Shown here piece after piece: positions 11,558 to 64,000 of a stretch of 64,000 nucleotides of DNA (its first letter is position 1; every line of letters starts with the position of its first letter). The notes under the pieces were generated by a model. It saw nothing but the letters and a program-made list of their open reading frames with translations, did not search any database and had not been told where the DNA came from. The position numbers and the translations under genes are program-made. The stretch is from Rugalucina vietnamica (taxonomy: Eukaryota; Mollusca; Bivalvia; Lucinida; Lucinidae): positions 64,661,043 through 64,725,042 of the forward strand of contig OZ024875.1 of assembly GCA_964017185.1 (NCBI GenBank). The letters run 5' to 3'.

Positions 11558-13694
11558 TTCGTCTCTCACTAATGAGAAAGACCATCATTATTTCTTGAAT
11601 AGTGCTGATGTGTGTTGGTGAGTTCTTTGATGGCTGACTAGGCCAATTCTGGCTCTAAACTGTCGGTTGCAAGTAGAGCAAGTCAATGTCATAGAGTCTG
11701 AAGGTGGCACATTTGTTTTGGCTTTGCGCTCTCTTCGCTTTCTTTCAGCTTCACAGATTCTCTTCTTTTCATAAAGAGCTGCTCCTTTGTTGATGAGACC
11801 TCGCCACTTTGATCGCTCCTGTGCAGTCTGTTCCCAGGACCCCATTGGTATTTCGAAATCCTTCAGAGAGGCTTTGAGGGTGTCTTTGTAGCGTTTCTTC
11901 TGGCCACCTTGAGAGCGCTTTCCCTCCTGTAGTTCTCCATAGAAAACTTTCTTTGGAAGTCGCGCATCAGGCATTCTTATAACATGGCCAGTCCATCTTA
12001 GCTGTGCTAGCTTTAAGACTGTATGCATGCTTTGCATCCCTGCTTTCGTCAGGACCTCTGTGTCTGGAATCTTGTCCTGCCACTTGATTTTTAACAACTT
12101 TCTCAAACAGCTTAAGTGGAAATGGTTAAGTCTCTTTGCATGGCGTTGGTATACTGTCCAGGTCTCACATGCATACAAGAGGGTTGGCAGTACCACAGCC
12201 TTGTAGACTTTCAGCTTGGTGTCAAGCTTGATTCCATTTCGCTCCCAGACATTTGCACGGAGTCGTCCGAATGCCACACTAGCCTTTGCAATTCTGGCAG
12301 TGATCTCATCATCAATATGCACTGCTCTGGAGAGAGTGCTTCCCAGGTAGGTGAACTTGTCAACAACTTTCAGTTTTTGCCCATTCACAGTGATGGTTGG
12401 TTCATTATATGACTTTCCGGGCGCTGGTTGGTGTACAACCTCTGTCTTTTTTGTGCTGATTGTGAGATCATAGTTATCACATGACTGTGAGACTTGATCC
12501 ATGGCTCTTTGCATTTTTGCCTCTGTGCTGGCATTCTTATCCATATCATCTGCATAGAGGAGCTCATCTAGCACATCAGTCTGGACCTTAGTTTTGGCTT
12601 GCAACCTTTTGAGGTTGAATATGTTGCCATCAAAACGGTACCTGATTGGAAAACCAGAACACAGCCTTGTTTGACCCCATTTTTTACTTCAAATGGTTCA
12701 GAGAACTCTCCATCATTTTGCACACGTGCCTGCATGCCATCATGAAACTGCCGCACCATTGCTATGAATCTGGGTGGACAGCCAAACTTGGCCATGATTT
12801 TCCAGAGTCCATCACGACTAACAGTGTCAAAAGCTTTGGTGAGGTCAACAAACGTCATGTATAGATCTACATTCTGTTCTTGGCATTTCTCCTGAAGCTG
12901 TCTTGCTGTGAAGATCATGTCTATTGTCCCTCTGTCTTTTCTGAATCCACATTGACTTTCTGGGATAAGTCCCGTCTGATCAAGATGAACATTCAGACGA
13001 TTCAACAGAATTTTTGCAAGTATCTTCCCAGCAATTGATAGGAGGGAGATGCCTCTGTGATTGTCACAGACTTGAGGATTTCCTTTCCGCTTGTATAGGT
13101 GGATTATGGATGCATCCTTAAATTCTTGTGGGATAGCCTCCTTTCTCCACATACAGTGAAACAACTTTGTCAGTTTCTCTGCCATGGGTAGCCCCCCAGC
13201 CTTGTAAACTTCGGCAGGAATTGCATCTGCACCTGGGGCTTTGCCAGATGATAGTTGTTGAACTGCTTTTCTTGTTTCCGTAACGGTAGGAAATTCATCT
13301 AACAGAACATTGCACTCTATCTGTGGAAGTCTGTCGATTGCATCCTCATTGATGCTTGATGGTCGATTAAGCACACTATTGAAGTGTTCTGCCCACCTTT
13401 CCAAAATAGCTTCTTTATCTGTGAGAAGAGTGTTACCATCTGCACTGAGCAATGCGGTGGCTCCAGAACTCTTTGGACCAAAAATGGTTTTCAGTGCATC
13501 ATGAAATTTCTTCATGTCCTTTCTATCCGCAAAAGACTGAATTTCTTCTGTTTTCTTCCTCAGCCAGGAATCTTGCATGTCCCTAAGCTTGGTCTGGACT
13601 GTCTTACAAATGTTGCTGTAGGCTGCTTTCTTTGATACTGAGCTAGTATCATCTTGATGTGCCTTGTGCAATCGGTGCTTTTCTTCAAGAAGCA
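11558..13694 (-). mobile_element. 5'-truncated non-LTR retrotransposon (LINE)
   Basis: The element carries a reverse transcriptase on the minus strand in two broken frames (13695-12568 and 12604-11588) and no endonuclease, as expected from 5' truncation at about 13694. It is flanked by CCCTAAGTATGATAG (11543-11557) and CCCTTAGTATAATAA (13695-13709), which look like a diverged 15-bp target duplication within the Penelope-like tail. The clade is not certain; the C-terminal C2H2 finger is found in several LINE lineages of marine invertebrates. Confidence 0.8.
11588..12604 (-). pseudogene. LINE ORF2 C-terminal part: RT palm YADD to zinc finger
   Basis: The frame opens with LLYADDM, the catalytic reverse-transcriptase motif, then KTEVV, FTYLGSTLS, LLYACETWTV and RWTGHVIRM, the conserved thumb and connector blocks of LINE polymerases. 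It ends with a C2H2 finger (CSTCNRQF...HQRTH) near the C-terminus. It continues the protein begun at 13695, but in another frame. The junction near 12640 lies where the segment following NGVKQGCVL should be, so the polymerase is broken. Confidence 0.85.
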
Positions 13695-13695
13695 C
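12568..13695 (-). pseudogene. LINE ORF2 N-terminal RT part, frameshifted
   Basis: It contains ordered reverse-transcriptase blocks: SGKAPGADAIPAEVY, FKDASIIHLYKRKG with NHRGISLLS, FVDLTKAFDTV (first catalytic Asp), and NGVKQGCVL. After that block about 25 residues are out of frame and end at 12568. The matching sequence resumes in another frame from about 12640, implying a short deletion with loss of frame. No endonuclease domain precedes it. Not a functional enzyme. Confidence 0.85.
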
Positions 13696-33722: not shown

Positions 33723-34637
33723 ATGGATGGTGCTAATGCAAATGTACAACCTGGTGCCGGTGGCATAGGACAGGTGTTTGCTGATTTAGCAACAGAAATG
33801 GCTGGTGTGCAGTCTGCTTTAAGTGCTCAGGGAGTAGCTCAGATGGTACCTGTTTTTGAAGGGGAACCAAAAGGTTTCCGGGATTGGGTTAAGGCGATAG
33901 AAAAGTATTGTGCCTTGATGAATCTTCCTGATGACAGGAAGAAAATGATTGCTTTTCAAGCAAGTAAGGGTGCAGTAAGTGGTTACATTCAAAGGTACAT
34001 GAATGCATTACCCGATAGTACATGGGGAGATCTTAAGGGAGAACTTGCAAAACGCTTCTCAGATGTGACCGATCCACAGTTTGCCTTGAGCATGTTGAGA
34101 CAAACAGTTCAAAAGAAAGGCGAGAACATTCAGTTGTATGCTGAACGTATCTTGTCCTTGGCTGAAGAGGCATTCTTAGGCCAGGGAGGAGATGCAATTG
34201 AAAGGCAATTAATAGACACATTCGTGGATGGGCTCACAAATGAGAGCTTAAAAATGACAATTTTAAGAAAGAAGCCGGACAACTTGCAAGATGCAATCGC
34301 TATTGCAACCAATGAACAAAACTTATGGGCAAGGGTGCATTTATCAGGTTCAGTTCCATATACTCAGAAGTCTGACAAGCGTGGTACTCCTATGGAAGTA
34401 GATCATTATCGAAATTTTAGATGTTACAAATGCAAACAGAAAGGTCATACAGCAAATCGTTGCAGAAATGTTAATGCAGTAGACAGACGGACTAACAGAA
34501 AAATCTTATGTTGGGGTTGTGGTCAAGAAGGTCACACTTTAAAATTCTGCAAAAACAGAAATCAAACGCCAAGACCACCTATAGGTCATGGTAGGTCATT
34601 TTATCATGTACAAAATAATCAGCAGTCGGAAAACTAG
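33723..34637 (+). CDS. gag: Gag polyprotein of the Gypsy element
   Basis: 304 residues, intact. Residues about 45-200 are the helical capsid-like region (PVFEGEPKGFRDWVKAIE, LAKRFSD, ENIQLYAERILSLAEEAF). Two CCHC zinc knuckles follow at about 233-246 (CYKCKQKGHTANRC) and 263-276 (CWGCGQEGHTLKFC), which bind element RNA during packaging. It ends at TAG 34635-34637. The protease frame is -1 relative to gag and is already open across the gag stop, so Gag-Pol was probably made by -1 ribosomal frameshifting. GGAAAAC at 34628-34634 is a weak slippery candidate. Confidence 0.92.
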   Translation: MDGANANVQPGAGGIGQVFADLATEMAGVQSALSAQGVAQMVPVFEGEPKGFRDWVKAIEKYCALMNLPDDRKKMIAFQASKGAVSGYIQRYMNALPDSTWGDLKGELAKRFSDVTDPQFALSMLRQTVQKKGENIQLYAERILSLAEEAFLGQGGDAIERQLIDTFVDGLTNESLKMTILRKKPDNLQDAIAIATNEQNLWARVHLSGSVPYTQKSDKRGTPMEVDHYRNFRCYKCKQKGHTANRCRNVNAVDRRTNRKILCWGCGQEGHTLKFCKNRNQTPRPPIGHGRSFYHVQNNQQSEN

Positions 34638-35158
34638 AAAGCTCTCGGCATGATGAAGCCGATGACGAGAGCAATAAAACAGAAACCCATTCAAAAGAAA
34701 ACAAAATACCAACATTTCATATTCAGTTGGCAGGAAGTCCAAATTCATGTATAATCAAAATTGGCAAACAGAAATACAGATCTTTAGTAGATACAGGCGC
34801 CGAGGTATCTTTGATGCACCGACGCGTGTTTGATCAATTAAGGGACAAACCAAGGCTTCAACGTCGTAAAATTAATCTTCATGGGGTGAATGGAAGTCTT
34901 TTAAAGATAGATGGGTGCATTGACCTTACTTTCAGTGTTGGTGGTGCAACAATGAGACAAAACTTCTATGTCGTCATGGAGATGAACAGAAATATGATTT
35001 TAGGAACAGACTGGCTTAAAAATCATGGAGTTAGGATTTATTACGATCTTGGTTGCATAAGAATAGGTGACAAGAATTATGTCAATCTGGAAGAAGATAT
35101 ACACATTGCTTCTGTAGTAAGGATGAAAAGTACAACTGTTATTAAAAGGTACAAGTAG
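34638..35158 (+). pseudogene. pol: Pol fragment 1: aspartic protease
   Basis: The retropepsin motif LVDTGAEVSLM carries the active-site Asp in DTGA, and ILGTDWLKNHGV is the second conserved block. The frame is open upstream through the end of gag, so there is no need for a separate start codon. It stops at TAG 35156-35158, which lies inside a foreign fragment matching the Penelope-like tail. The protease itself appears intact; its continuity with RT is lost. Confidence 0.85.
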
Positions 35159-35200
35159 GCAAAGATCAGGAAAAGGCGCAATCAGAAAAAGATTCCCACT
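35150..35200 (-). repeat. 51-bp Penelope-tail fragment inside pol
   Basis: The stretch starting GTACAAGTAGGCAAAGATCA and ending AAAAGATTCCCACT is the same as 51329-51379 of the Penelope-like tail. The flanking pol sequence is in frame 2 before it and in frame 3 after it. It explains the stop and the frame change between protease and the RT connector. Confidence 0.8.
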
Positions 35201-35717
35201 ACTGATTGCAAGTAGTAGTAAACCCCAGACGGCAACTATTTGCTATGGAAAGGTTAGGTTTAATCCTGATATCAAGACTGAACAATGTTACCAAATATCA
35301 TCAGCAGACACAGGCTTTCTTGTCAATGAACCAGGGCTTCAAGTTGTAAATTCAGTGAGTAAGTTGCAGAGTGATAGATCAATCCCCATTCTCGTAGTCA
35401 ACAACACCAATAAGACTATGAGAATATTCAGACATAGCACCTTAGCAAAGCTTGAAAGTGACTTTAGCAAAGTCACAGAAGTGAATTCTATCCTGAAAGG
35501 TCCTGATGTAGGGGGTCAATTAGATCTTAAGGACTTGGATGTACCTCAAGAATTCCGAAAGGATATAGAACATCTTATCCTAAAGAACCAAGAGCTATTT
35601 GCCAGTAAAGACACTGAACTTGGTCATACTAAAACTGTGCAAATGAAAATTGACACAGGCGATTGTAGTCCGATCAAAATGCGTCCTTATAGGGCTCCAT
35701 TGACTTTAGAAAGTTGA
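35196..35717 (+). pseudogene. pol: Pol fragment 2: protease-RT connector
   Basis: The open frame continues from about 35196 to a stop at 35715-35717. It holds the spacer with ILVVNNTNKTMRIFR, a region of charged helices, and LGHTKTVQMKIDTGDCSPIK followed by the RPYRAPL block that precedes RT in Ty3/Gypsy Pol. After that block the expected RT N-terminal segment is missing and the next recognisable block is in another frame. Confidence 0.75.
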
Positions 35718-37744
35718 ACCAGGTCACTAAGAGGAACTCATATCCCCTCCCTGTTATTGATGATATACTGGCATTGTTGGGAAAGTCAAAATTCTTCTCT
35801 TCTCTCGATCTTAAAAGTGGATATTGGCAGGTGTCAATGAACGAACATGACAAAGAGAAGACAGCATTTGCCTGTCACAGGGGTCTGTTCGAATTCAATG
35901 TGATGCCTTTTGGTCTTTCTAATTCCCCAGCGGTGTTCCAGGAGTTGATGTCTGTGGTGTTGCAGGGTATCGGTACGTTTGCCATTGCTTATCTTGATGA
36001 TATACTTGTATTCAGTCCAACCCTTGAAGACCATCTACGACATTTGGACATTGTATATGACAGGTTGCGTCAGCATGATCTGAAATTGAAACTGAAGAAA
36101 TGTGGGTTTTTGAAGTCTGAAACACAGTACCTTGGCTTCATTATAAACAAAGATGGTATCAAGCCGGAACCAAAGAAGGTTGAAGCAATAAGGTCCTTAC
36201 CAGTTCCTACTTGTGTTAGAGAAATTCGGTCTTTCATTGGAATGTGTTCTTTTTATCGAAGGTTTATCCCCAATTTTTCGGAAATTGCCGAACCAATCAT
36301 AGACCTTACAAGGAAGCATGCACATTTCAAATGGTCGGATAAACACCAGAAAGCATTTCAATATTTGAAGGACAGTTTGACTGTAGTTCCTTTCCTTGCT
36401 TATGCTGACCAAAACAAACCATACACTCTCTATACTGATGCCAGTGGAACATGTATTGGTGCTTGCTTGACCCAAGCTGCTGAGACTGAAGACCCTCACT
36501 TCCACAATGTCCCAAATGAAAAACCAATCTACTATCTTTCTCACAAGCTGAGCAGAACCCAGTGTAAATGGTCAACTGTGGAAAAGGAGGCCTATGCGAT
36601 CCACTTTGCTCTCCAGAAGCTGGATCACTATCTACATGGTGCTGAATTTGTGATCAAGACCGATCATAAGCCCTTGAAGTATTTACTAGAGTCTCCAATG
36701 CAAAATAAGAAAGTCCAACTTTGGGCACTGAGCATGTCAGGATACAATTGCCAGATTGAATATATACCTGGTACAACCAATACCTGTGCTGACTTATTAT
36801 CAAGGAAACCAGATGATGAGGCTTCGGAGGAACCAGAAAATCTAGATGAAAGCGAAGAAGTGACCCTGGATATCAATGATAACACTTTTGAGGTGAACAC
36901 CTTAAACTCCAATAGGTTTGAGCCTAAGAAATTCGCCAAGTGTGATGTCCCAATGGATGACCCTCTTAAGAAGCCAGAAGATTGCTTCCCAGAACTTGAC
37001 ATGGTGAAAGAACAGGCTAAGGATGATGAAATCCTTGAATTGAAGACAATTCTTGTTCATGGAGATCCTGGAAAAGACACACAGAGGAAACATCTTATAG
37101 TTGATGGTGTCTTGTATTATCTCTCTGATCCTGACAATGATCCAATTCTTAGATTGTTTGTTCCCAGACATTTGAGAACTGGAGTAATCACACAATACCA
37201 TGATGATAATGGGCACATGGGGGTTCAGAAATCATTTGATGGAATCAGACAGAAATATTATTGGCCAAACTTGTACAAAGAAATTTATCAGTATGTGACA
37301 AATTGTGTTGTCTGTAAAACTAGGTCTCTTCAAAAGGTAAAGCAACCATTGCAAGAAACTGACATACCACCTTATCCAATGGCTAAGCTTTCTTTAGACT
37401 TGTCTGGTCCATATCCAACATCTTTGTCTGGAAACAAATACATCATTGCTTTTGTTGACTGGTTTAGTGGGTGGCCAGAGGCTTTTGCTGTCCCTGATAA
37501 GACCGCTGATACAGTTGCAAATTTGTTGATAGAAGAAATATATCCGAGGTATGGCTGTCCTCTACAAATTGTGACTGACAATGGGACTGAGAATATAAAT
37601 CAGGTCATTAGAGAAACTTTAGAAGCTATGAATATCCATCATGTGCTTACAAGTGTCTACCATCCTCAAAGTAACGCTAAAGTTGAGAGGTTTCACAGGA
37701 CATTGCATGATGTTCTTGCAAAGAAACTAACAGACAATCAATAG
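35702..37744 (+). pseudogene. pol: Pol fragment 3: RT, RNase H and most of integrase
   Basis: The first RT fingers are deleted: the readable protein begins DFRKLNQVTKRNSYPLP. Then come LDLKSGYWQV (first catalytic Asp), MPFGLSNSPAVFQ and IAYLDDILVF (catalytic YLDD). RNase H has YTLYTDASG, EKEAYAIHFAL and KTDHKPLKYLL. Integrase has an HHCC zinc domain (H..H in YHDDNGHMG; CVVC) and a DDE core with LDLSGPY, VTDNGTE and AKVERFH. It is closed by an in-frame TAG at 37742-37744. Confidence 0.9.
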
Positions 37745-38734
37745 CACTGGGATCTTTATCTGAACCAAGCTTTAGCCGCAATACGCTTCAACATCAGTGT
37801 CTCTTCAAACTTTTCCCCATTCTTTCTACTGTACAACAGAGATGTGGTGTTGCCAGTCGACAATCTTATGAAGCCTAGACGAAAATACCAAGGCGAAGAA
37901 ACACACAAAATAGCCTTGGAAGAACGGCATAAGAACTTTGTTTTAGTCTGGAGACATTTGAAGAACGCCAAGAAGAGGCAAGCTAAATATGCCGATCAAG
38001 GATCAAAGCAGATAGACTATGAAGTGGGTGATCCAGTCTACTACAAGAATCAACGAATGCAAAATAAGCTTGATGCAAGATGGAAACCATTTCATAGAAT
38101 CATAGCTAGGAGAGGACCTAGCTCATATTTGATTCAAAACCAACTAGATGGATCCACCATCAAAGCTCATGCCGTAGATCTGAATCCGGTGAATCTTGAG
38201 GAATGGGACATTCCATGTACCAAAGACGGCAGATCGATGCGCATGGCTGCATATGCTATTCCACCAGATGAATCATCATCAGAGGATGATGGCTCAGAAC
38301 CAGATGAACCCTTGAGGAAGGTCATAAGACGACATCGAAGGGAGAGAGAAGATTCTGACGAAGAAGATGACATCCCTTTGATGGAGCTGTCTAAGAGGCT
38401 GAAAGCCAGAAAAGAAGCTGAAGAAGAGGAAATTAGAGCAGCTGAAGAACAGCGACAGTTCTTGGAACAAGATCAACAAGTACAAGAACAAGAACCTATT
38501 GATGATACAATGGTTGAAAACGATGATCCAATGGGCGAAGATTCCTTTGATGATGCTATGTCTGTGAATGAGGTCAATGACTGTACACCTACAGACACTG
38601 AAAGCAAAAAGGTCAATTGCTCAGAGAAGATAGAAACAGAAAATAAACCTAAGGAAAATAAATTAGATCCTAAGGTTAAGGCTCCACTTCAAGCCAATCA
38701 GACAATCATGAGTAGGATGTCTGGGTTGGCTTAA
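37745..38734 (+). pseudogene. pol: Pol fragment 4: integrase C-terminus with long charged tail
   Basis: Same frame as fragment 3, so only the TAG separates them. It starts with HWDLYLNQALAAIRFNIS, followed by the GPY/F-like barrel region (YEVGDPVYYKNQR, RWKPFHRIIARRGPSSYLI). The last about 170 residues are an unusual tail: acidic serine clusters (SSSEDDGSEPDE), basic RRHRRERE, then a long E/Q/D-rich stretch. I do not see a chromodomain. The tail may be a chromatin-tethering segment, which is inference. Confidence 0.8.
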
Positions 38735-51327: not shown

Positions 51328-52860
51328 AAAGTACAAGTAGGCAAAGATCAGGAAAAGGCGCAATCAGAAAAAGATTCCCACTCCAAAAACCGAGGTGGGA
51401 AAAAACCAAACTAACAATCAGGTACTTATACCATGAAACATATCGTAAGCCGAATGAGCAGCTATTTTCCCAATAGGTGGCCACTCAGTTACCTTAACTT
51501 AACTAAAAATATGAAAACATACATAAGGCGCCAACAGCACAAAAAATTTTAAACACCAAGACATAAAACAAAAAGAACCACTACAGAAGTATCGACTTGG
51601 AACGATCAGTAACACAAAGTTACTGGCGGGCTTAAACCGGTTTTACAGGTACCTAACCTCACCCTCAGCTTCTGCAGTGGTTCACAACATTTAGTTAGTT
51701 CTTCGGTCCTCGTGGTGAATCTCTAACTAGTCAATGAATCATCGAGAACAAACAAATAAATCATGATAAACATCCTGATGAATCAAAAACCAGGACTCAC
51801 AGATTGAGTAAGCTGCCCGACGATGGAGATCCCTGGGCGCCGAATAACCTACTAACTCCGGAGCAAAAGAAAAACACCAGTTGGACCCCGGTGGGCCAAG
51901 CAACAGACAAGAAGCTCCGGCCCCAACCAACTAAAATGAATAGCTTTAAGTCGGGGCCATCATAGAGTCTGACGCCCGACCCACCGGCGTGCAATTAAAG
52001 AAGGCAGCATAGTTATCAACCATGATTGGGTTAAAAACTAAGCATGCAGACTGTCGCATAACATTCAAGTTATAACCTATACGTCTGTAACGTGTTATGA
52101 TTTTTCCGAACTGAAAAGAAAAATCATTTATTCCTTTAAGTTTCTTTAATTTGTAAACCAAGTCACCATAAAATTCAGGTTCCGAAAGGCCCTCACTTAA
52201 AAGTGTCTTTAACCCAACATTATATTTGGAAATCAATTCATAGTGTCTACGATAAAATTTAGAAAAGGTTTTTCGAAGTTTATGATACCGATAGCCCTGT
52301 TGGAGAAGTTTTGCCGTTAAACATTTATTTCGAGCGTTGAAGTCTGTAACATGATTGCAGACTCTAGCAAACCTAATAAGTTGCGAAATGTATACACCAT
52401 AAGAAGCACGACGAGGAACGTCACCATCCAAAAAAGGAAAATTTACTATATCAAAATCAAAGTCATCGCGCTTATCATAAATTTTAGAAGAAACAAATCC
52501 ATTTGCAACAGAAAGATGTAGATCTAAAAAGGGGGCTTCGGTATCTGAGATATTAGCTTTGTTCAACTGAAGTTCAGGTGGATAAATTTGATTGACCATG
52601 CCTTCAAAATAAGGATTGTCAATGTTCAAAAGGTCATCGAGGTACCTAGATGTGGAATTAAAAGCCTCGATAACATCAGCTTGATTATCATGGTTAAGAG
52701 AATCCATGAAATCTCTTTCGTAGCAGTATAAAAATAAATCAGCTACGAGAGGTGCGCAATTTGTACCCATCGGAATTCCAACAATTTGTCTGTATAACTT
52801 GGTCCCAAATCTAATATAAATATTATCAAGGAGATAGGATAAGGCGTCGCACACATTCTG
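51328..52860 (-). mobile_element. Penelope-like retroelement, 5'-truncated, with RT
   Basis: The minus-strand order is a reverse-transcriptase frame (52854-51946) followed by a 3' non-coding tail to the terminus at about 51328 (GGTGGGAAAAA...GCCTACTTGTAC inverse). At least six partial relatives are in the window. The upstream part of the element (and any GIY-YIG endonuclease) is missing. The Penelope-like class is inferred from the RT motif set; the clade is not certain. Confidence 0.65.
51946..52854 (-). pseudogene. Reverse transcriptase (Penelope-like type), N-truncated
   Basis: 302 residues. It includes GIPMGTNCAPLVADLFLYCYE, then SRYLDDLLNIDNPYF with the catalytic YLDD, then the thumb region FLDLHLSV, RASYGVYISQLIRFARVCNHV, LLQQGYRYHKLRKTFSKFYRRH and LVYKLKKLKGI. 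These motifs belong to a widespread invertebrate RT family related to Penelope-like elements. The fingers and first catalytic motif are absent (5' truncation at about 52860), so it is not a complete enzyme. The frame is otherwise intact to its stop. Confidence 0.75.
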
Positions 52861-55927: not shown

Positions 55928-57914
55928 ATTCCCACGACGCTTGGTTTAATCATTTAAGGATGTTCGCTGCCAATGAAAAAGTATTCAAACTTTTTTTTCT
56001 AATCACTCTTTTTTGATTCCAAAATACAACACAAGACATTTGAAAACAAAATAAATATAGGGTAGTGTGCATTTTTTCAAGCTACATGCCTCTGAATGAG
56101 ACCTCTGAGCTCCATGTTTAAATTTGGTAAAATTAATTTAATTTTTAATTCTTTGAAACATACCTGTCTTGAACAAAACTACACATAGACTGCTTTCAAA
56201 AGTCATAATCATTCCCACGACGCTTGGTTTAATCATTTAAGGATGTTCGCTGCCAGTGAAAAAGTATTCAAACTTTTTTTTCTAATCACTCTTTTTTGAT
56301 TCCAAAATACAACACAAGACATTTGAAAACAAAATAAATATAGGGTAGTGTGCATTTTTTCAAGCTACATGCCTCTGAATGAGACCTCTGAGCTCCATGT
56401 TTAAAATTTGGTAAAATTAATTTAATTTTTAATTCTTTGAAACATACCTGTCTTGAACAAAACTACACATAGACTGCTTTCAAAAGTCATAATCATTCCC
56501 ACGACGCTTGGTTTAATCATTTAAGGATGTTCGCTGCCAGTGAAAAAGTATTCAAACTTTTTTTTTCTAATCACTCTTTTTTGATTCCAAAATACAACAC
56601 AAGACATTTGAAAACAAAATAAATATAGGGTAGTGTGCATTTTTTCAAGCTACATGCCTCTGAATGAGACCTCTGAGCTCCATGTTTAAATTTGGTAAAA
56701 TTAATTTAATTTTTAATTCTTTGAAACATACCTGTCTTGAACAAAACTACACATAGACTGCTTTCAAAAGTCATAATCATTCCCACGACGCTTGGTTTAA
56801 TCATTTAAGGATGTTCGCTGCCAGTGAAAAAGTATTCAAACTTTTTTTTTCTAATCACTCTTTTTTGATTCCAAAATACAACACAAGACATTTGAAAACA
56901 AAATAAATATAGGGTAGTGTGCATTTTTTCAAGCTACATGCCTCTGAATGAGACCTCTGAGCTCCATGTTTAAATTTGGTAAAATTAATTTAATTTTTAA
57001 TTCTTTGAAACATACCTGTCTTGAACAAAACTACACATAGACTGCTTTCAAAAGTCATAATCATTCCCACGACGCTTGGTTTAATCATTTAAGGATGTTC
57101 GCTGCCAGTGAAAAAGTATTCAAACTTTTTTTTTCTAATCACTCTTTTTTGATTCCAAAATACAACACAAGACATTTGAAAACAAAATAAATATAGGGTA
57201 GTGTGCATTTTTTCAAGCTACATGCCTCTGAATGAGACCTCTGAGCTCCATGTTTAAATTTGGTAAAATTAATTTAATTTTTAATTCTTTGAAACATACC
57301 TGTCTTGAACAAAACTACACATAGACTGCTTTCAAAAGTCATAATCATTCCCACGACGCTTGGTTTAATCATTTAAGGATGTTCGCTGCCAGTGAAAAAG
57401 TATTCAAACTTTTTTTTTCTAATCACTCTTTTTTGATTCCAAAATACAACACAAGACATTTGAAAACAAAATAAATATAGGGTAGTGTGCATTTTTTCAA
57501 GCTACATGCCTCTGAATGAGACCTCTGAGCTCCATGTTTAAATTTGGTAAAATTAATTTAATTTTTAATTCTTTGAAACATACCTGTCTTGAACAAAACT
57601 ACACATAGACTGCTTTCAAAAGTCATAATCATTCCCACGACGCTTGGTTTAATCATTTAAGGATGTTCGCTGCCAGTGAAAAAGTATTCAAACTTTTTTT
57701 TTCTAATCACTCTTTTTTGATTCCAAAATACAACACAAGACATTTGAAAACAAAATAAATATAGGGTAGTGTGCATTTTTTCAAGCTACATGCCTCTGAA
57801 TGAGACCTCTGAGCTCCATGTTTAAATTTGGTAAAATTAATTTAATTTTTAATTCTTTGAAACATACCTGTCTTGAACAAAACTATACATAGACTGCTTT
57901 CAAAAGTCATAATA
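55928..57914 (+). repeat. 284-bp satellite, seven near-identical units
   Basis: Units start ATTCCCACGACGCTTGG at 55928, 56211, 56495, 56779, 57063, 57347 and 57631, a period of 284 bp (283 for the first). Visible differences are single bases or one T in a T-run. Each unit contains TTTAAGGATGTTCGCTGCCA, whose inverse GCAGCGAACATCCTTAA occurs once at 60263-60279, so the unit includes one end of a dispersed repeat. Confidence 0.95.
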
Positions 57915-57917
57915 TTT

Positions 57918-58172
57918 ACGTAACGCATCTTCATCTTCAGAGACGTGACGCGCGATGTTCGTACAAATTTGTGTAACACGACGTTCACGTTCAGTTTGAT
58001 TTATTTTGCGCTGAGCGATACGTGTATGTGTCAGGTAATCTGATTGTTCGCTTGCATGTTGTACCTTCGAGAGTTTTAATATTTCTTCTTTTTCAAGTGA
58101 TCCTCTTAAACTATTTTTTTTTCTTTCTCCACTGCGCAGTTCTATTTTAAGAAGCTTAAATGTGTGTTCCAA
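57918..58172 (-). CDS. Possible first exon of an unknown charged helical protein
   Basis: About 85 codons from a Met at 58172. The sequence is very charged and helical: LRGSLEKEEILKLSKVQHAS, YLTHTRIAQRKINQTERERR, TQICTNIARHVSEDEDALR. A donor-like C|GTAAAT ends it at about 57918, just before the satellite array. CRE-like TGACGTAC and TTACGTCA sites lie within 50 bp upstream of the Met. I do not recognise the protein. If real, the satellite lies in its first intron. It could also be part of a dispersed repeat. Confidence 0.38.
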
Positions 58173-60290
58173 TAAAGTACGGTATCATGGCGTTTGTGAC
58201 GTACATTATCATGCGTTTACGTCAAGTGTGACAAAAATTCAGCCTTGTTAAATAATTTATAAAAATAATATTATTTGTCGCACGACAATGAAAATAATAT
58301 GATTTTAAAGCTTAGAACATGAGCATTTTAGTAAAAGTATCGTATGTCTTGTTTTCTTGTATTAAAATTTATTTATTTCACAATAAGGAAGATGACCCAC
58401 TCAAAAACAAAGCAAAATTCGCATGTGTGACATTTTTTCAGCCAAAAGTAAAGCTTTATAAGAGTGAAGTTTTCAAAGTTTTATAAATATTTCTGCATAC
58501 ATTTTAATCAGCTTTTTATGAGCATTTAGTTTGTATGAAAATGGTCGTACATGTTAACTCTGTGTAATAATCGTGTATTTTAATTTCAAGTGCACCCTTG
58601 ATTTTCCCCAAAGCGTGACACTTTTGGCACCGGCTGTTTTTTAACTGCCAAAAATTGAAATGCGGTCCGAAGTTAACTAAAATTATGTCAGTGATATCTA
58701 CATGTATTGTCATTATCCCGCCGTATTTTGATGGGATTTGGTCAAAAAACTTCGGAGATGTACGTTTTCAAACCTTTTTAGCAATGCGATTTTGTTACGC
58801 GTGACACGCTGTTTTGGCGTAAAAATTGCATTTTATTTGTATCTTGTTAAATTTTGCGTGATAAAAATCATGCATGGTTGTTGTAATGCAATTATCCATA
58901 CGAAGCGGATTATTTTGATATGTAAAACATAGATATTGAGCCGAAACTGCGTTTGTTATTGCGTTTTTACTGACACAGCAAGCATTATTTTAAAATTTGT
59001 ACGAACTTTGCGCGAACGCAGAGACTACTTTGGACCAACAGCATAGGAAAATTTGCAACTTGGAGTGTATGAAAAAAAAAAATACGATTCCTTTTCCAAC
59101 CCTACCCCCATACTTGAAAAGTCGGAAATAATCAATATTTTGAAATGTGCCAAACCCATATTTGTTGATTCAAACTTTTTCTTGTATTGTCACACAATAT
59201 AGAACTTGGCAATATTGTTTGAATAAAAGAAAGAAATATGTAGGGTAGTGAGCATATAAGAGAGATCCAACAACTTGAAAATCGCCATTTTCAGCCTTTC
59301 TTCGGCTGTTTTGTTTCAAAAAGCCCATTTCATAAAACCACCTAAAATTTTAAAACCAACACACCAGATACACAAAGAATGACTACTGTATGTTTCGTAG
59401 TGTGTGATAATGGTTTTTCGCAGATATTTTACAACTGTTCAAATAATGAAGAAATATTTTCTTGGCACTATTAAGCATCCAGTTTGTCGCAAAATGTGCA
59501 GCAAAAATTTTGAAAATCGGTTGACAAATAAATAAGTTCTGGTCAAAAACATTTTTGAATAGGGATTTCCTGTACAAAAATCTTATGGAAGGGAGGTAAA
59601 TATTTTCCCGCAAAAAATTTAAATTCTAACTATTTAATCATGATTACTAAAAATTATTATAAATTGACACAAATGACACACCTGAGACAAAATCTTCATG
59701 ATCAGGTAAAAATTCTCGAAAAAGATGCATTTTCACGATCATCGATTATCTCCCTTGCCAATGCAAAATCCCTATGCAAAATTCATTTTGGCCATAAAAA
59801 CTTTATTTGTTCACGGATTTTCAAAAAATTTTCAGGTCCTATTAGGACAAACTAAGATCAAGATTTTGACATGAAAATATTTTTTCATTTTTTCTGTCGT
59901 CCCCTATACAAAAATTTTCTGCGAAAAACCATTATCTTGGGCAAGTTTTCAGACTATAAGAAGACCTTGTACACATATACTGCTGCTAAAATAAACATCG
60001 AACTAGTGCAATTAATTTGAAGATGTGTAATATTCAAGTTTAATCTACCCTACCCCCTAATTTTTACTGACAACTAAAATTTTCTGAAAAGTTTCAGAAA
60101 ATGAGCTGAAAAAATGAAGTTTCTTAGAGTGACAATTTTCATGGCTCATTCAATGCATATCATCAATATGTATCCAAATATAAAATATTTGGAAAATATC
60201 TGCAACCGTTTATGAGATATTCAAGAAAAGAAAAACCGGAAGTTCCGAAATGTCAAATGTTAGCAGCGAACATCCTTAAAATCGTAAAAT
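58173..60290. other. No gene seen; right part of a TTAA-ended dispersed repeat
   Basis: AT-rich, with no coding exon found. It ends at 60263-60279 with GCAGCGAACATCCTTAA, the inverse of the TTAAGGATGTTCGCTGC in the 284-bp units. TTAA-flanked ends of this kind fit a piggyBac-like or other TTAA-targeting non-autonomous element, but the interior gives no support. Confidence 0.4.
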
Positions 60291-60405
60291 AAATTATTTT
60301 CAGTTCCAAAAAGGAAAACGACTTGGTGCAATCAGAATCGAAGTCCCACCCCAAAAAAACGAGGTGGAAAAAGCAACAACTAATGATCAGGAGTAGTAAT
60401 GGCCG

Positions 60406-60532
60406 GCGGTATGGCTCCATTTTCTGAAAAATTATAGCTCCATTTTTATGGCTCCATTTCAGATAAGCGTAGCGCTAGAAATGGAGCCATAAAAATGGAG
60501 CTATAATTTTTCAGAAAATGGAGCCATACCGC
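60406..60532. repeat. Perfect 55-bp inverted repeat with 17-bp loop
   Basis: 60406-60460 is the exact reverse complement of 60478-60532; the loop is AGATAAGCGTAGCGCTA. Each arm contains three degenerate copies of GGCTCCATTT. It stands 119 bp beyond the 3' hairpin of gene A. An unmutated arm pair of this length implies a recent origin or gene conversion between arms. Confidence 0.95.
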
Positions 60533-60650
60533 GCACCCTGGGTCTCAGTTTATGAACTAGCTAAGTTGCATGTGTAGGTAAGTATCCTTGAGTTAAGACA
60601 GGGACTTTAAGTAATGTGCAAATAAAGGTTATCTTTCAGAAATAGTTGGT

Positions 60651-60666
60651 AGCCCTGAAAAGGGCT
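60651..60666 (-). terminator. Histone-type 3' stem-loop of gene A
   Basis: On the minus strand AGCCCTTTTCAGGGCT: six paired bases and a TTTC loop, 26 nt after gene A's stop. The context ...AACAGCCCTTTTCAGGGCTACCA and a purine-rich TGAAAGAT about 12 nt downstream match the histone mRNA stem-loop and downstream element (U7 snRNA site). Confidence 0.75.
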
Positions 60667-60692
60667 GTTTGAGTATTTTGTGAAGTCTGAAT

Positions 60693-61115
60693 TTATTTTG
60701 TAGTCTTCTTTCGCTTGGTTGCTTGTATTTCTTTCTTAGCTATGCCTAATCCTACAGCTGGAGATGATGTAGCCGGTTGGTCGGTATTGATGATGTCTAA
60801 TCTGATAGGCATTCTGATCGCAGGGAACTGTATGCTTGGCATCTGAGCTTGTCGCTGTACTTCTTCTTCCAGTTGTTTGACTTTGGATTTCAACTCATTG
60901 AGTTCTTTAACCAAGACATCTATTATCTGTGTTCTTTGCAGTTGTTGCTGCAACTGTGATGTCTGTTGCTGGTAAGGAGAAACCGCTTGTACTGGTTGTT
61001 GATAGTACTGCTGTTGTGTAGTTGCAGTGTCATTAGTAAAGACTTCATTACATGCTTGCAGTAATATGTCTGGGTTGTTAATCATATCGTCGAAGCTGAT
61101 TTGATTCGAAGCCAT
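60693..61115 (-). CDS. Gene A: Q-rich coiled-coil protein, unknown
   Basis: 140 residues from ATG 61115. Residues about 1-28 are acidic (FDDMINNPDILLQACNEVF), 30-65 glutamine-rich (QQQYYQQPVQ, QQTSQLQQQLQ), 62-92 a coiled coil with heptads (IIDVLVKELNELKSKVKQLE), and the C-terminus is basic (KRKKTTK). No known family recognised. It is divergent from gene B; 219 bp separate the two ATGs, and both promoters have the same 15-bp element and TATA box. The TATA-to-ATG gap is 39 nt, so the leader must be very short. The 3' end has a histone-type hairpin. A multimerising structural or nucleic-acid-binding role is guesswork. Confidence 0.8.
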   Translation of the reverse strand: MASNQISFDDMINNPDILLQACNEVFTNDTATTQQQYYQQPVQAVSPYQQQTSQLQQQLQRTQIIDVLVKELNELKSKVKQLEEEVQRQAQMPSIQFPAIRMPIRLDIINTDQPATSSPAVGLGIAKKEIQATKRKKTTK

Positions 61116-61154
61116 GACTGAACATGTATGTAAAACTTGGACTGTTGAGCTAAG

Positions 61155-61187
61155 CTTTTATACTCACTGAGAGGATTGACCTACTTT
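61155..61187 (-). promoter_or_regulatory. Promoter of gene A: 15-bp element plus TATA
   Basis: On the minus strand AAAGTAGGTCAATCC (61187-61173), a 10-bp gap, then TATAAAAG (61162-61155). The same 15-mer with the same gap drives gene B. The element contains AGGTCA, a nuclear-receptor half-site sequence. Confidence 0.8.
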
Positions 61188-61256
61188 CTGTCTCATGTTT
61201 GTAAAGTCGGCTGTGATTTGTTACTTATACAGGACCTTCTGATTGGTTTGAAGTTT

Positions 61257-61289
61257 AAAGTAGGTCAATCCCCCCAGAGAGTATAAAAG
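61257..61289 (+). promoter_or_regulatory. Promoter of gene B: 15-bp element plus TATA
   Basis: AAAGTAGGTCAATCC (61257-61271), a 10-bp gap, then TATAAAAG (61282-61289). An inverted CCAAT box (GATTGGTTT) lies at about 61239-61247. The ATG follows 45 nt after the TATA box. Confidence 0.82.
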
Positions 61290-61334
61290 CAATTGCATTT
61301 TGCAGTTCTGTACACTTTCTTCGTGTACAACAAA

Positions 61335-61781
61335 ATGGCAAAACAGTTTGACTGTGAGTGCTACTTGAGGGCTTTGGAGGAGCAGGCAGACAGTATTGGT
61401 GGGGCGGCTACCAGCATGTTGGAAGCTATCAATACTTTCAAGAACAGCGCTGAGTCCTTGCAGCGGACGGTAGAAAATCTGAAGTCCATGATTGGTATGA
61501 CAAGAAGTGCTATGAATTTAGCACATGGAGGACGGGTTGTAGAGAAGACGGAGATAAAGCGGGAAACACTGTCACCAATAGTATCTGAGGAAGACTGGGA
61601 TGATGACAGGCCCAGTCATAACTACAGTGATCAGACTGAAGATTGGGACGCCGAGGCAAACGAGCCGTCCTATAGTTTTGAAGGCAGGAATCTTTCGATT
61701 CCTGCCTACAGAACGGTCAAGTTTGATCGTTGGGGACAGCGCTGCCCTGCCTGTGGGAGTAGATACTGTGCCTGCTCCTAA
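61335..61781 (+). CDS. Gene B: helical, acidic protein with Cys-rich end, unknown
   Basis: 148 residues. The ATG at 61335 is chosen because the context CAAAATGGC is good and it lies 45 nt after the TATA box; the frame is open further upstream, but that part precedes the expected transcription start. Residues about 8-60 are helical/coiled coil (LRALEEQADSIGG, LQRTVENLKSMIG). Residues 80-115 carry tryptophan-acidic clusters (EEDWDDD, TEDWDAE), a pattern found in binding peptides. The end has CPACGSRYCAC, a possible zinc site or disulfide knot. No family recognised. It is paired head-to-head with gene A and followed by gene C in the same direction. Confidence 0.82.
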   Translation: MAKQFDCECYLRALEEQADSIGGAATSMLEAINTFKNSAESLQRTVENLKSMIGMTRSAMNLAHGGRVVEKTEIKRETLSPIVSEEDWDDDRPSHNYSDQTEDWDAEANEPSYSFEGRNLSIPAYRTVKFDRWGQRCPACGSRYCACS

Positions 61782-61808
61782 TCATCTGTGGCTTAAGTTC
61801 CACCCAAC

Positions 61809-61824
61809 GGCCCTTTTCAGGGCC
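61809..61824 (+). terminator. Histone-type 3' stem-loop of gene B
   Basis: GGCCCTTTTCAGGGCC, six-base stem and TTTC loop, 27 nt after the stop, in the context CCAACGG...CCACACA, very close to the metazoan histone consensus. A TTTCTTTCC tract follows where a purine-rich downstream element would be expected, so the downstream part fits less well than in genes A and C. Confidence 0.78.
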
Positions 61825-61972
61825 ACACATTTCTTTCCGATTGAACTAACTTTTATTTATGTATTTATGATGTATATGTGTTGTCTTACGGTTATGGTGT
61901 AATCTTTGTGGCGTGTTCGTATGTGAACTTCTCATTGGTTCTGATCAAAACGCATTTGATTGGTTCTGATTA

Positions 61973-62006
61973 AAAGTAGGTCAATCCTAGTCATTGACTA
62001 TATAAC
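61973..62006 (+). promoter_or_regulatory. Promoter of gene C: 15-bp element plus TATA
   Basis: AAAGTAGGTCAATCC (61973-61987) is identical to the elements of A and B. An 11-bp gap precedes TATATAAC (61999-62006). Two inverted CCAAT boxes in CATTGGTTCTGATCAAAA and GATTGGTTCTGATTAAAA make a 27-bp-spaced repeat directly upstream (61933-61976). Confidence 0.82.
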
Positions 62007-62041
62007 ATCGTGTTCTGTGCCTCTCTGTACATTCTGGAACT

Positions 62042-62218
62042 ATGGGGTTCTTTGAAAAATTCAGTTTGAGGAAATTGTGTGCTGCTTTTCACAAAAAAGA
62101 TTATCGGGAAATTGAGAGGCAACAAAACAAGATGGGGATACAGATTTTTTTGGCCAGAAGAGGTATTGGTTACTGCAAACCAGTAGCTATTGTACGACCA
62201 ATGCCTCGAAAACCTTAG
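62042..62218 (+). CDS. Gene C: 58-residue basic protein, unknown
   Basis: A short gene missed by a 60-codon cut-off. ATG at 62042, 35 nt after the TATA box, and stop TAG at 62216-62218. The protein is strongly basic: MGFFEKFSLRKLCAAFHKKD at the start, a helix YREIERQQNKMG and an R/P-rich end (VRPMPRKP). It has two cysteines and no signal peptide. No family recognised. Its reality is supported by context: identical promoter element upstream and a histone-type hairpin 26 nt downstream. Confidence 0.72.
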   Translation: MGFFEKFSLRKLCAAFHKKDYREIERQQNKMGIQIFLARRGIGYCKPVAIVRPMPRKP

Positions 62219-62244
62219 GAATCTCTTGTCTCTCATGACCAAAC

Positions 62245-62260
62245 AGTCCTTTTCAGGACT
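62245..62260 (+). terminator. Histone-type 3' stem-loop of gene C
   Basis: AGTCCTTTTCAGGACT, six-base stem with TTTC loop, in the context CCAAAC...ACCAAA. CAGAAAGAAT follows 10 nt later, an excellent histone downstream element. The stem differs from those of A and B by paired (compensating) changes. Confidence 0.8.
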
Positions 62261-62490
62261 ACCAAATCTTCAGAAAGAATACCTTTGTAATATTGGTACT
62301 GACCAAATCTTCAGATAGAATATCTTTGTAAGAAATTTGCTGACCATGTCTTCAGAAAGAAAATGTTTGTAAGAAATTTGCTGACCATTTCTTCAGAAAG
62401 AATATCTTTGTAATAATGTTACTAACTTGTATAATGACCAATATTTCATGACTACCAAATCTCCAGAAAGAATACCATTGTAAGAAACAA
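62260..62490 (+). repeat. Five tandem-like copies of the downstream-element block
   Basis: Units of about 40 bp: ACCAAATCTTCAGAAAGAAT, then CTTTGTAA, repeated at about 62261, 62303, 62343, 62383 and 62455, with substitutions (CAGATAGAAT; CCATGTCTTC). Only the first is preceded by the hairpin. An AATAAA at 62498-62503 after the last unit could serve as backup polyadenylation. Confidence 0.75.
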
Positions 62491-62637
62491 CTAACACAAT
62501 AAAACATTTTTTTCAATTTTAATTTGTACAAACAATTTTTAAGTGTACACATTTGAATAATATAGTCTCTAGAATTATTTGACTAATACAGTCTCTTAGA
62601 ACATTTTGACAACAGTCACAGTTCATAACTTAAAAAA

Positions 62638-63387
62638 TCAGTTCAATGTCAATTTACTTAATGATTTCTTCAGCTCTTCTTCTGGATCAAGAACAATTTC
62701 GTCACAGTTCTTAGCATCATGAGTCTCTGATTTACAGATGAAGCAGTATTTCCTCTTAGGAATCCTTCGTTTCGTCTTCTTTGGCTCAGCTGTCTTCTCT
62801 ACTTTTCGCTGCTTGCTTGGAGTTGGCTCTGGCACATCTTCGTCACACATTCGCTTTCGTTTGTTTGTCTTTTCCACCACTGCAGTTGATTCAGTTGATG
62901 TTGAAATTTTCTCTGGTTTTGTCTCATCTTTCTGTGGACACTTTGAAGCCCAGTGATCAAACGAACCGCACTTGAAACATTGTCCATGTGCTGGTTTTCC
63001 ATCTGGTTGTTCTCTAGCAAGCTTTAGTTTCAAACAATCGCTGGCCCAGTGTGTTGTTTCTTTACAGTAGTAACATTGTCCAAAAGGTGGAACAAGTTTT
63101 CCTTGTGCCCTCAGCATATCTTCTAATGGTTTTAGCTGTTGAACTTCATCTGTAGTGAGAAGTTTCTTCAAAGATATGAAGTGGTAGTAGATACTCTTAG
63201 TCTCACTGCTCATAGTTGAATCCATGTTTACTCTTTGACGATTTGAAGTAGAATGATTCTGTGAGTCTGTGTCACCGACTTTATACCCTGGCGCAGCATG
63301 CGTAAAGGTACCTTTCATCAATGATCGATGTTGATAGTAGATACTCTTTGGGTCATTGAATTTTTCTTTTCTTGGATCTTGTGACAT
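62638..63387 (-). CDS. Gene D: triple zinc-knuckle protein, unknown
   Basis: 249 residues from ATG 63387. It has three CX2CX4HX4C knuckles: C105-C118 (CYYCKETTHWASDC), C137-C150 (CFKCGSFDHWASKC) and C215-C228 (CFICKSETHDAKNC). The first two resemble each other (HWAS.C). Before them KSIYY.H.SL.K occurs twice (residues 14-25 and 64-75). Between knuckles 2 and 3 is a basic stretch (NKRKR; KKTKRRIPKRK), a likely nuclear signal. Zinc knuckles of this type bind single-stranded nucleic acid in Gag and in host RNA-binding proteins. The C-terminus is KLTLN, as in gene E. TATAAAAA at 63441-63434 is 46 nt before the ATG. No reverse transcriptase or protease accompanies it. The 3' side shows no histone-type hairpin. 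Confidence 0.82.
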   Translation of the reverse strand: MSQDPRKEKFNDPKSIYYQHRSLMKGTFTHAAPGYKVGDTDSQNHSTSNRQRVNMDSTMSSETKSIYYHFISLKKLLTTDEVQQLKPLEDMLRAQGKLVPPFGQCYYCKETTHWASDCLKLKLAREQPDGKPAHGQCFKCGSFDHWASKCPQKDETKPEKISTSTESTAVVEKTNKRKRMCDEDVPEPTPSKQRKVEKTAEPKKTKRRIPKRKYCFICKSETHDAKNCDEIVLDPEEELKKSLSKLTLN

Positions 63388-63433: not shown

Positions 63434-63441
63434 TTTTTATA
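63434..63441 (-). promoter_or_regulatory. TATA box of gene D
   Basis: TATAAAAA on the minus strand, 46 nt before the gene D start and 3 nt after the gene E stop codon. The 15-bp element of genes A-C is not present upstream; that place is gene E coding sequence. Confidence 0.6.
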
Positions 63442-63444
63442 CGT

Positions 63445-63831
63445 TCAGTTCAGTGTCAGTTTGTCGATTGCAGAAATGAGATCTTCATATTCCATATCTT
63501 CCTCCTCACAATCTCTTCGAATATCTGTCAGTATAGATTCTAGATGAGAAATCACGCCGTCGTTATTGGCAACGTGAGTTAGCCAGTGGAGATAAGTTAT
63601 CGGACTGTCATCAATGAGTCTCCACATTTCATTTGCAATTTTTCTGCACCAATATTTGAAAGTACCAAATGTTTCCAATCTGTTCAACCACATATTGATA
63701 CCTTCTCTTGTTTTCAAGAATTCAGCATCGGTTGGTTCTAATGACAAAGTCTGTTGCAAAGCACACTTGTACACGTCAAACTGTAAGATCTGATCCAAAC
63801 ATACGGGTAGACTCTTTGTAATGCTATTCAT
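63445..63831 (-). CDS. Gene E: unknown helical protein with acidic end
   Basis: 128 residues from ATG 63831. Mostly helical: LDQILQFDVYKCALQQTL, INMWLNRLETFGTFKYWCRK, EMWRLIDDSPITYLHWLTHV, then an acidic end (DCEEEDMEYEDL) and the terminal AIDKLTLN. The shared KLTLN with gene D suggests a common C-terminal signal or common ancestry of that end. No family recognised; tryptophan-rich helices could be capsid- or matrix-like, which is speculation. The start overlaps the stop of a 35-codon frame (63935-63828) by ATGA. It continues the tandem arrangement of the cluster beyond the window. Confidence 0.75.
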   Translation of the reverse strand: MNSITKSLPVCLDQILQFDVYKCALQQTLSLEPTDAEFLKTREGINMWLNRLETFGTFKYWCRKIANEMWRLIDDSPITYLHWLTHVANNDGVISHLESILTDIRRDCEEEDMEYEDLISAIDKLTLN

Positions 63832-63935
63832 GATGTATATCCGAGCAGGTATCTGGAATAACTTGTTGGATACTGTAAAGTAACTTGATTATCTGCTTGT
63901 GTCTCGAACAACTTCCAGTTTCCAAATGATACCAT
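63828..63935 (-). CDS. Possible 35-codon upstream frame overlapping gene E
   Basis: ATG at 63935, stop TGA overlapping the ATG of gene E in the four bases ATGA. The protein starts MVSFGNWKLFETQADNQ and has no recognisable motif. TATAAAG at 63957-63951 lies only 15 nt before this ATG, so a transcript starting about 30 nt after the TATA box would not include it; it would instead serve gene E with a leader of about 95 nt. Confidence 0.3.
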   Translation of the reverse strand: MVSFGNWKLFETQADNQVTLQYPTSYSRYLLGYTS

Positions 63936-64000
63936 GTCTCCGTCTTCGTGCTTTATATTGTCTAACAGTCTCCAATTCAAACACAGTTCACTCTCAGGTC

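Follow-up and report, generated by a model that had tools for sequence, protein, structure and literature searches.

Histone-type 3' hairpins and a common promoter on three non-histone open reading frames

Introduction

Histone mRNAs are presented in two papers as the sole animal mRNAs that end in a short hairpin of this type without a poly(A) tail (PMC10388802, PMC1924863). Among the features that matter to SLBP, one of these papers names a G in the second pair of the stem, with adenines preceding the stem and an A immediately following it (PMC10388802); a further report names a closing U-A pair and a U at the first and third loop positions (PMC6827988). TCF15 mRNA, which is not a histone message, is cited in another paper as bound by SLBP (PMC3022624), and a viroid loop is described as a copy of the histone loop structure held to act in plants, for which no SLBP is reported (PMC6827988). 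An internal Histone3 match has also been noted in a coronavirus gene; at 14.7 bits in the excerpt available (PMC7786107), it is far weaker than the hairpins described here (29.1 to 33.9 bits). Viral histone genes such as bracovirus H4, as far as the accessible text describes them, resemble the present locus in uniting a histone-associated feature with a possible viral setting; there, however, a histone coding gene is concerned, whereas here the RNA signal alone would be borrowed. In the mostly open-access literature covered, with few subscription papers and in the portions accessible, no gene set was found that carries a complete hairpin after each stop codon together with a common promoter.

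The histone-type hairpins of the three ORFs A, B and C are a variant of a known RNA-processing signal, and the new point is the common promoter, which suggests a regulon.

Results

The ORF block and its proteins

The window, by which we mean the whole 64-kb stretch of DNA analysed, is of animal type, with a SECIS match, an ORF with a CARD domain and RT-bearing ORFs, and includes a retrotransposon that encodes gag, protease, RT, RNase H and integrase domains; some repeats in the window may be molluscan. The ORFs A to F lie in a block reaching from about 60540 to the window end, with a G+C content of 0.39 versus 0.33 in 58000-60540. The layout is compact, as 3.4 kb accommodate six ORFs distributed over the two strands:

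60693..61115, minus strand: ORF A, 140 aa, rich in Q, resembling a coiled coil by eye, C-terminus basic (KRKK)
61335..61781, plus strand: ORF B, 148 aa, predicted helix at residues 9-63, acidic middle, C-terminal CPACGSRYCACS
62042..62218, plus strand: ORF C, 58 aa, net charge +10
62638..63387, minus strand: ORF D, 249 aa, CCHC-type knuckles, basic stretches, C-terminal LKKSLSKLTLN
63445..63831, minus strand: ORF E, 128 aa, C-terminal LISAIDKLTLN
63828..63998, minus strand: ORF F, C-terminal part only, continuing past the window end

Among 2000 second-order random sequences of block length, the longest ORF reached at least 140 codons in 117 and at least 249 codons in none; at least two ORFs of 128 codons or longer occurred in 10 of the 2000, and the block has four (249, 148, 140 and 128). 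A period-3 codon signal is present in A, B and D (reached by 1, 19 and 8 of 2000 shuffles, respectively) and absent from C, E and F (1804, 642 and 1856 of 2000), the lowest count among six non-coding control stretches being 23 of 500. Since this signal is absent, the coding status of C, E and F is less sure, and that of C is the weakest among A, B and C.

No histone family was found by Pfam in A, B or C at E up to 1, in agreement with the initial annotation, which had held that these proteins do not look like histones, and A matched no Pfam family above its cut-off. The single-sequence structure models of B and E reached a mean pLDDT of 59 (helix core above 85) and 49, respectively, and a PDB sequence search with the two returned nothing below E 0.6. 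Comparison of A to F with one another by blastp at E up to 10 gave short matches only, the best one (9 residues around cysteines in B and D) at E 0.035, and none among A, B and C.

The protein of D resembles Gag-type CCHC nucleocapsid proteins in its zinc knuckles, of which three are seen by eye and two are scored by Pfam (PF00098, 31.7 bits versus a cut-off of 20.8), and in its best PDB match, a Gag polyprotein (E=1.1e-4). It differs from them in its company, as no protease, reverse transcriptase or capsid domain was found in A to F with Pfam and NCBIfam. CCHC knuckles are also common among cellular proteins. A comparison of D with phage records gave no match.

Hairpins downstream of A, B and C

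A hairpin of 16 nt, with six perfect pairs out of six and the loop TTTC, follows the stop codon of A, B and C at a distance of 26, 27 and 26 nt, respectively, which matches the 26-27 nt annotated initially:

60651-60666, minus strand: hairpin A, AGCCCTTTTCAGGGCT (AGCCCT-TTTC-AGGGCT); RF00032 match at 60671-60626, 33.9 bits, E 5.1e-6; fold -9.0 kcal/mol
61809-61824, plus strand: hairpin B, GGCCCTTTTCAGGGCC (GGCCCT-TTTC-AGGGCC); RF00032 match at 61804-61849, 32.0 bits, E 2.8e-5; fold -11.4 kcal/mol
62245-62260, plus strand: hairpin C, AGTCCTTTTCAGGACT (AGTCCT-TTTC-AGGACT); RF00032 match at 62240-62286, 29.1 bits, E 3.2e-4; fold -7.2 kcal/mol, a second small stem included

The E-values stem from a search of the whole 64-kb window, which gave no further RF00032 match up to E=10. 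Each of the three matches covers the model in full (positions 1-46 of 46), but all miss its gathering score of 34 bits, by 0.1 to 4.9 bits, and a search at that score lists none of them. The covariance scan proposed for these 3' ends thus singled out the three hairpins, at scores below the cut-off. The case for the hairpins rests on their number, place and company rather than on score. Based on 200 first-order Markov sequences, 0.005 such hairpins are expected per 64 kb versus three observed, for a pattern drawn after the hairpins had been seen. When the scan of the window was loosened to seven permitted loops, it turned up a single additional perfect hairpin (12602, loop TTTG), which has no RF00032 match. 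The lowest-energy structure is the hairpin for each of A, B and C, with modest folding-energy z-scores of -1.72, -2.85 and -1.60; 13, 3 and 16 of 200 shuffles, respectively, folded as well as the native sequence.

With the replication-dependent histone 3' end (RF00032) the three elements share the 16-nt hairpin, the TTTC loop, the A-rich 5' flank and the ACC or ACA 3' flank, and with replication-dependent histone genes the short ORF directly upstream, the TATA promoter and, for A and C, a candidate purine-rich downstream element. They differ from the model in that the stems of A and C begin with A-U, and from the genes in that the proteins are not histones. All three hairpins have a G at the second pair, the closing U-A and a U at the first and third loop positions; adenines precede the stem and an A follows it immediately. 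In all of them the nucleotide adjoining the stem on its 5' side is a C, and in the human histone element it is an A. In the accessible portion of a study of mapped C. elegans histone 3' ends (PMC1924863), a C stands directly 5' of the stem as in hairpins A, B and C, and the stem of B with the AAC before and the ACA after it is identical, whereas the loop differs. The covariance model, the place, the flanks and the finding of no histone family together support the initial proposal that three ORFs not coding for histones carry 3' ends of histone type.

Two of the six stem pairs (1 and 3) vary between the hairpins, in each case with both partners altered in a single one of the three. The initial annotation had taken such compensating changes as a sign of selection on the fold; the changes are confirmed, but since A, B and C lack homology with one another, these changes would speak for maintained pairing only in the case of a common origin of the hairpins, and on this thin basis they are no more than suggestive.

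A promoter shared by A, B and C

At the 5' ends of A, B and C an identical 15-nt word, AAAGTAGGTCAATCC, is found without any mismatch, followed by a TATA element at 10, 10 and 11 nt, respectively:

61155..61187, minus strand: promoter of A, AAAGTAGGTCAATCC (61187-61173), 10 nt, TATAAAAG
61257..61289, plus strand: promoter of B, AAAGTAGGTCAATCC, 10 nt, TATAAAAG, divergent from the promoter of A
61973..62005, plus strand: promoter of C, AAAGTAGGTCAATCC, 11 nt, TATATAA

A single ATTGG (CCAAT) box lies between the divergent promoters of A and B, and ATTGGTTCTGATYAAAA repeats are located upstream of the C promoter at 61934 and 61959. When up to two mismatches were allowed, the 13-nt core of the word gave three matches in the window, all of them exact; 1.32 are expected in such a search and 12 of 100 shuffles reach three, so that the evidence is carried by the exactness and the fixed place of the word. 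A nuclear-receptor (ROR) reading of the word was dropped, the loose motif occurring 13 times in the window.

Since ORFs without mutual similarity have both ends in common, the shared 5' and 3' signals point to A, B and C as one putative regulon. This sharing of both ends by dissimilar ORFs is the strongest new point; the initial annotation had proposed a coordinated gene set without mention of the promoter word, which now strengthens that proposal.

Sequences near the hairpins of A and C

Purine-rich elements, tandem repeats and possible polyadenylation signals were found around the hairpins of A and C:

60692..60697, minus strand: AATAAA overlapping the stop codon of A, upstream of hairpin A
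60632-60637, minus strand: purine-rich element of A, GAAAGA, 13 nt 3' of the stem
62272-62277, plus strand: purine-rich element of C, AGAAAG, 11 nt 3' of the stem, recurring in the repeats
62261..62423, plus strand: four 41-nt tandem copies of the stretch right after hairpin C; CAGAAAG occurs in three of them, CAGATAG in the other
62498..62503, plus strand: AATAAA, candidate polyadenylation signal, 238 nt past the end of hairpin C

The downstream purine-rich element reported initially for A and C is thereby recovered, and the same motif scan detected none downstream of hairpin B. A further partial copy of the repeat is located at 62444-62483, with the 3' arm of the hairpin changed; a second hairpin copy in the repeats of C was considered and rejected, as 62430-62480 does not form it. 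The AATAAA at the stop codon of A would, if used, count against hairpin-only processing, and given this signal and the one past hairpin C, the mRNAs of A and C may be polyadenylated.

Searches for relatives and for similar hairpins

No credible relative of A to F was found in IMG/VR, in a search that reaches close relatives only, and no viral hallmark gene was detected in A to F with Pfam and NCBIfam, which is weak negative evidence for the 3.4 kb of the block that lie in the window. Two IMG/VR matches to B (L001 and L002) share an acidic SEEDWDDD word and were judged to be chance; neither has an RF00032 match at E up to 1. L001 is presumably phage-like, judging from its ORFs, and those of L002 are similarly long. 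Among prokaryote genomes, a poor place to look for an animal element and again searched for close relatives only, 51 stretches fitted a pattern for B and none was confirmed. The promoter word with TATA occurs in 26 IMG/VR contigs, which were rejected: none of the 26 showed the TTTTCAG core in the hairpin scan or a tblastn match to A to F at E up to 0.1.

The hairpin pattern was found in two IMG/VR contigs, each with 5/6 Watson-Crick pairs, and in 13 prokaryote contigs, with 6/6 pairs in L034, L035, L036, L038 and L043. The Rfam model was run on 14 of these 15 pattern-picked contigs, L042 (3/6 pairs) being left out. Three of them, L034 to L036, titled as Gastranaerophilales MAGs (L035 is bacterial), scored 29.5 bits each, and the phage-like IMG/VR contig L029 scored 25.1 bits, but inside a 528-codon ORF; the other 10 had no RF00032 match at E up to 0.1. 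Since look-alikes reach 29.5 and 25.1 bits in pattern-picked contigs, an RF00032 score by itself is no proof of a histone-type element.

Discussion

We lean, with slightly more belief than doubt, towards the view that A, B and C are genes whose mRNAs would be processed in the host SLBP manner and which belong to a compact element, of viral descent or mobile, residing in an animal genome. The virus-derived or mobile nature of the element is suggested by its compactness, the ORFs on both strands, the knuckle protein and the small size of proteins for which no relative is known. The regulon would then consist of three short transcription units without introns, A, B and C, each with the common promoter (AAAGTAGGTCAATCC with TATA 10-11 nt on) and a histone-type 3' end. 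Host SLBP would bind the hairpin in the pre-mRNA of all three, and the U7 snRNP might pair with the purine-rich element in A and C and be held mainly via SLBP on B. The proteins of A, B and C could thus be made while host DNA replication is on. From the hairpin signal we infer that SLBP binds these mRNAs, that they are cut without polyadenylation and that their expression is coupled to S phase; a viral or mobile origin is put forward less firmly. The fuller picture of an animal DNA virus or mobile element with a whole gene class ending like histone mRNAs, in which a common promoter and an SLBP-bound hairpin replacing the poly(A) tail would tie the class to S phase, is tentative, and we place it somewhat short of an even chance. 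Several points speak against the preferred explanation, namely that no homologue of A to F was found in the searches described, that the scores lie below the cut-off, that a C stands before the stem, that B has no purine motif, that C, E and F show no codon signal, that AATAAA signals lie at the stop of A and past hairpin C, and that the 3.4 kb in view hold no viral hallmark gene.

The main rival is a host origin, which appears rather unlikely: A, B and C would be lineage-specific host genes, active for instance in germline cells or in early embryos, whose promoters and 3' ends of histone type were gained secondarily, a dispersed histone repeat being one conceivable source, so that the 3' processing would be the same and the origin cellular. 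Replication-dependent histone gene pairs have divergent promoters with CCAAT boxes and TATA, and the ATTGG (CCAAT) boxes and TATA in the divergent promoter of A and B resemble them; the basic runs in A and D and the net charge of C (+10) would also fit. For host genes, however, it would be unusual to lie so densely packed on the two strands, next to an ORF with Gag-type knuckles and to ORFs that overlap as ATGA, and the ORFs adjoining the hairpins match no histone family. Between a viral or selfish element and a germline chromatin system, the two options named initially, the compact both-strand layout and the Gag-like knuckle neighbour favour the former, the chromatin role being supported by the basic stretches alone.

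The next alternative, to which we give still less weight, is that the histone-like hairpins are used otherwise, in RNA stability, export or packaging, perhaps bound by a protein of the element such as D, and that the mRNAs are polyadenylated. The AATAAA signals 238 nt past hairpin C and at the stop of A, the finding of no purine-rich motif on B and the scores below the Rfam cut-off are all compatible with this; moreover, D looks RNA-binding, with basic stretches and an export-like end, and the viroid loop with histone loop structure is held, in the accessible part of the source, to act in plants (PMC6827988). Yet the match at the present locus takes in the loop, the flanks, the distance from stop codon to hairpin and, for A and C, also the purine-rich element, features that would not be required of a generic hairpin. 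That the hairpins are functionless bystanders resembling the histone element by chance is very improbable. Look-alikes do exist in very large collections (the three MAG contigs at 29.5 bits and the phage-like contig at 25.1 bits), as does the weak 14.7-bit Histone3 match within a coronavirus coding region (PMC7786107, in the excerpt available), but the three hairpins seen here versus 0.005 expected per 64 kb each lie just past the stop of an ORF, in a window without any other match up to E=10.

If the preferred explanation, an element with host-SLBP-type processing, is true, a non-histone regulon would show that the histone 3'-end pathway can be borrowed as a whole, and the element would gain a means of following the host S phase. 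Genes of this kind would tend to escape detection in RNA-seq after poly(A) selection.

The D-E-F side of the element would rely on ordinary polyadenylation. Neither D nor E has an RF00032 match to the histone hairpin, and an ATTAAA was found downstream of D. A TATA element lies upstream of D:

63435..63441, minus strand: TATAAAA upstream of D

F and E overlap in the sequence ATGA, where the TGA of F shares bases with the ATG of E. The D and E proteins have KLTLN as their last residues, and a leucine-rich export (NES) pattern occurs in each solely at the C-terminus. A second TATAAA is located at 63285-63280 (minus strand), in a duplicated stretch ahead of an internal ATG of D.

Inverted repeat and duplication at the block

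About 120 nt from the histone-type hairpin of ORF A, on its outer side, lies the following element:

60406-60532: perfect inverted repeat, 55 nt, with a 17-nt centre

This repeat is foldback or MITE-like and possibly represents a terminus of the higher-G+C block that holds ORFs A to F; a second copy was not found within the 64-kb window. Matches to miRNA families were obtained at the repeat on both strands, all of them sub-threshold. A further repeat was observed in D, the ORF encoding CCHC knuckles:

63163-63358: local duplication with copies at a spacing of 150 nt

The duplication doubles a KSIYY-coding stretch and also a promoter-like TATA-CAGACTCACA stretch, which leaves two possible starts for D.

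Look-alikes of the histone hairpin in prokaryote contigs

Three contigs picked by the hairpin pattern in prokaryote genomes (L034, L035, and L036), titled Gastranaerophilales MAGs and belonging to one sample series, have the hairpin GGTTCTTTTCAGAACC in common, and the stretch following it is conserved among them as well. They score 29.5 bits with RF00032, the Rfam histone 3' UTR stem-loop. This hairpin is a look-alike of the histone element, and in L035 it sits in bacterial sequence.

Other elements in the window

Retrotransposon ORFs, a satellite-like array and a SECIS match were located elsewhere:

11588-13695 (-): retrotransposon ORF(s), RT domains
33723-38734 (+): retrotransposon ORF(s), zinc knuckle/gag, protease, RT-RNase H, and integrase domains
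51904-51971 (-): SECIS_1 match, 39 bits against a gathering score of 35
56000-57913: 284-nt tandem array, satellite-like

The tandem array includes several identical copies, and the start of the SECIS_1 match falls within the end of the ORF at 51946-52854.
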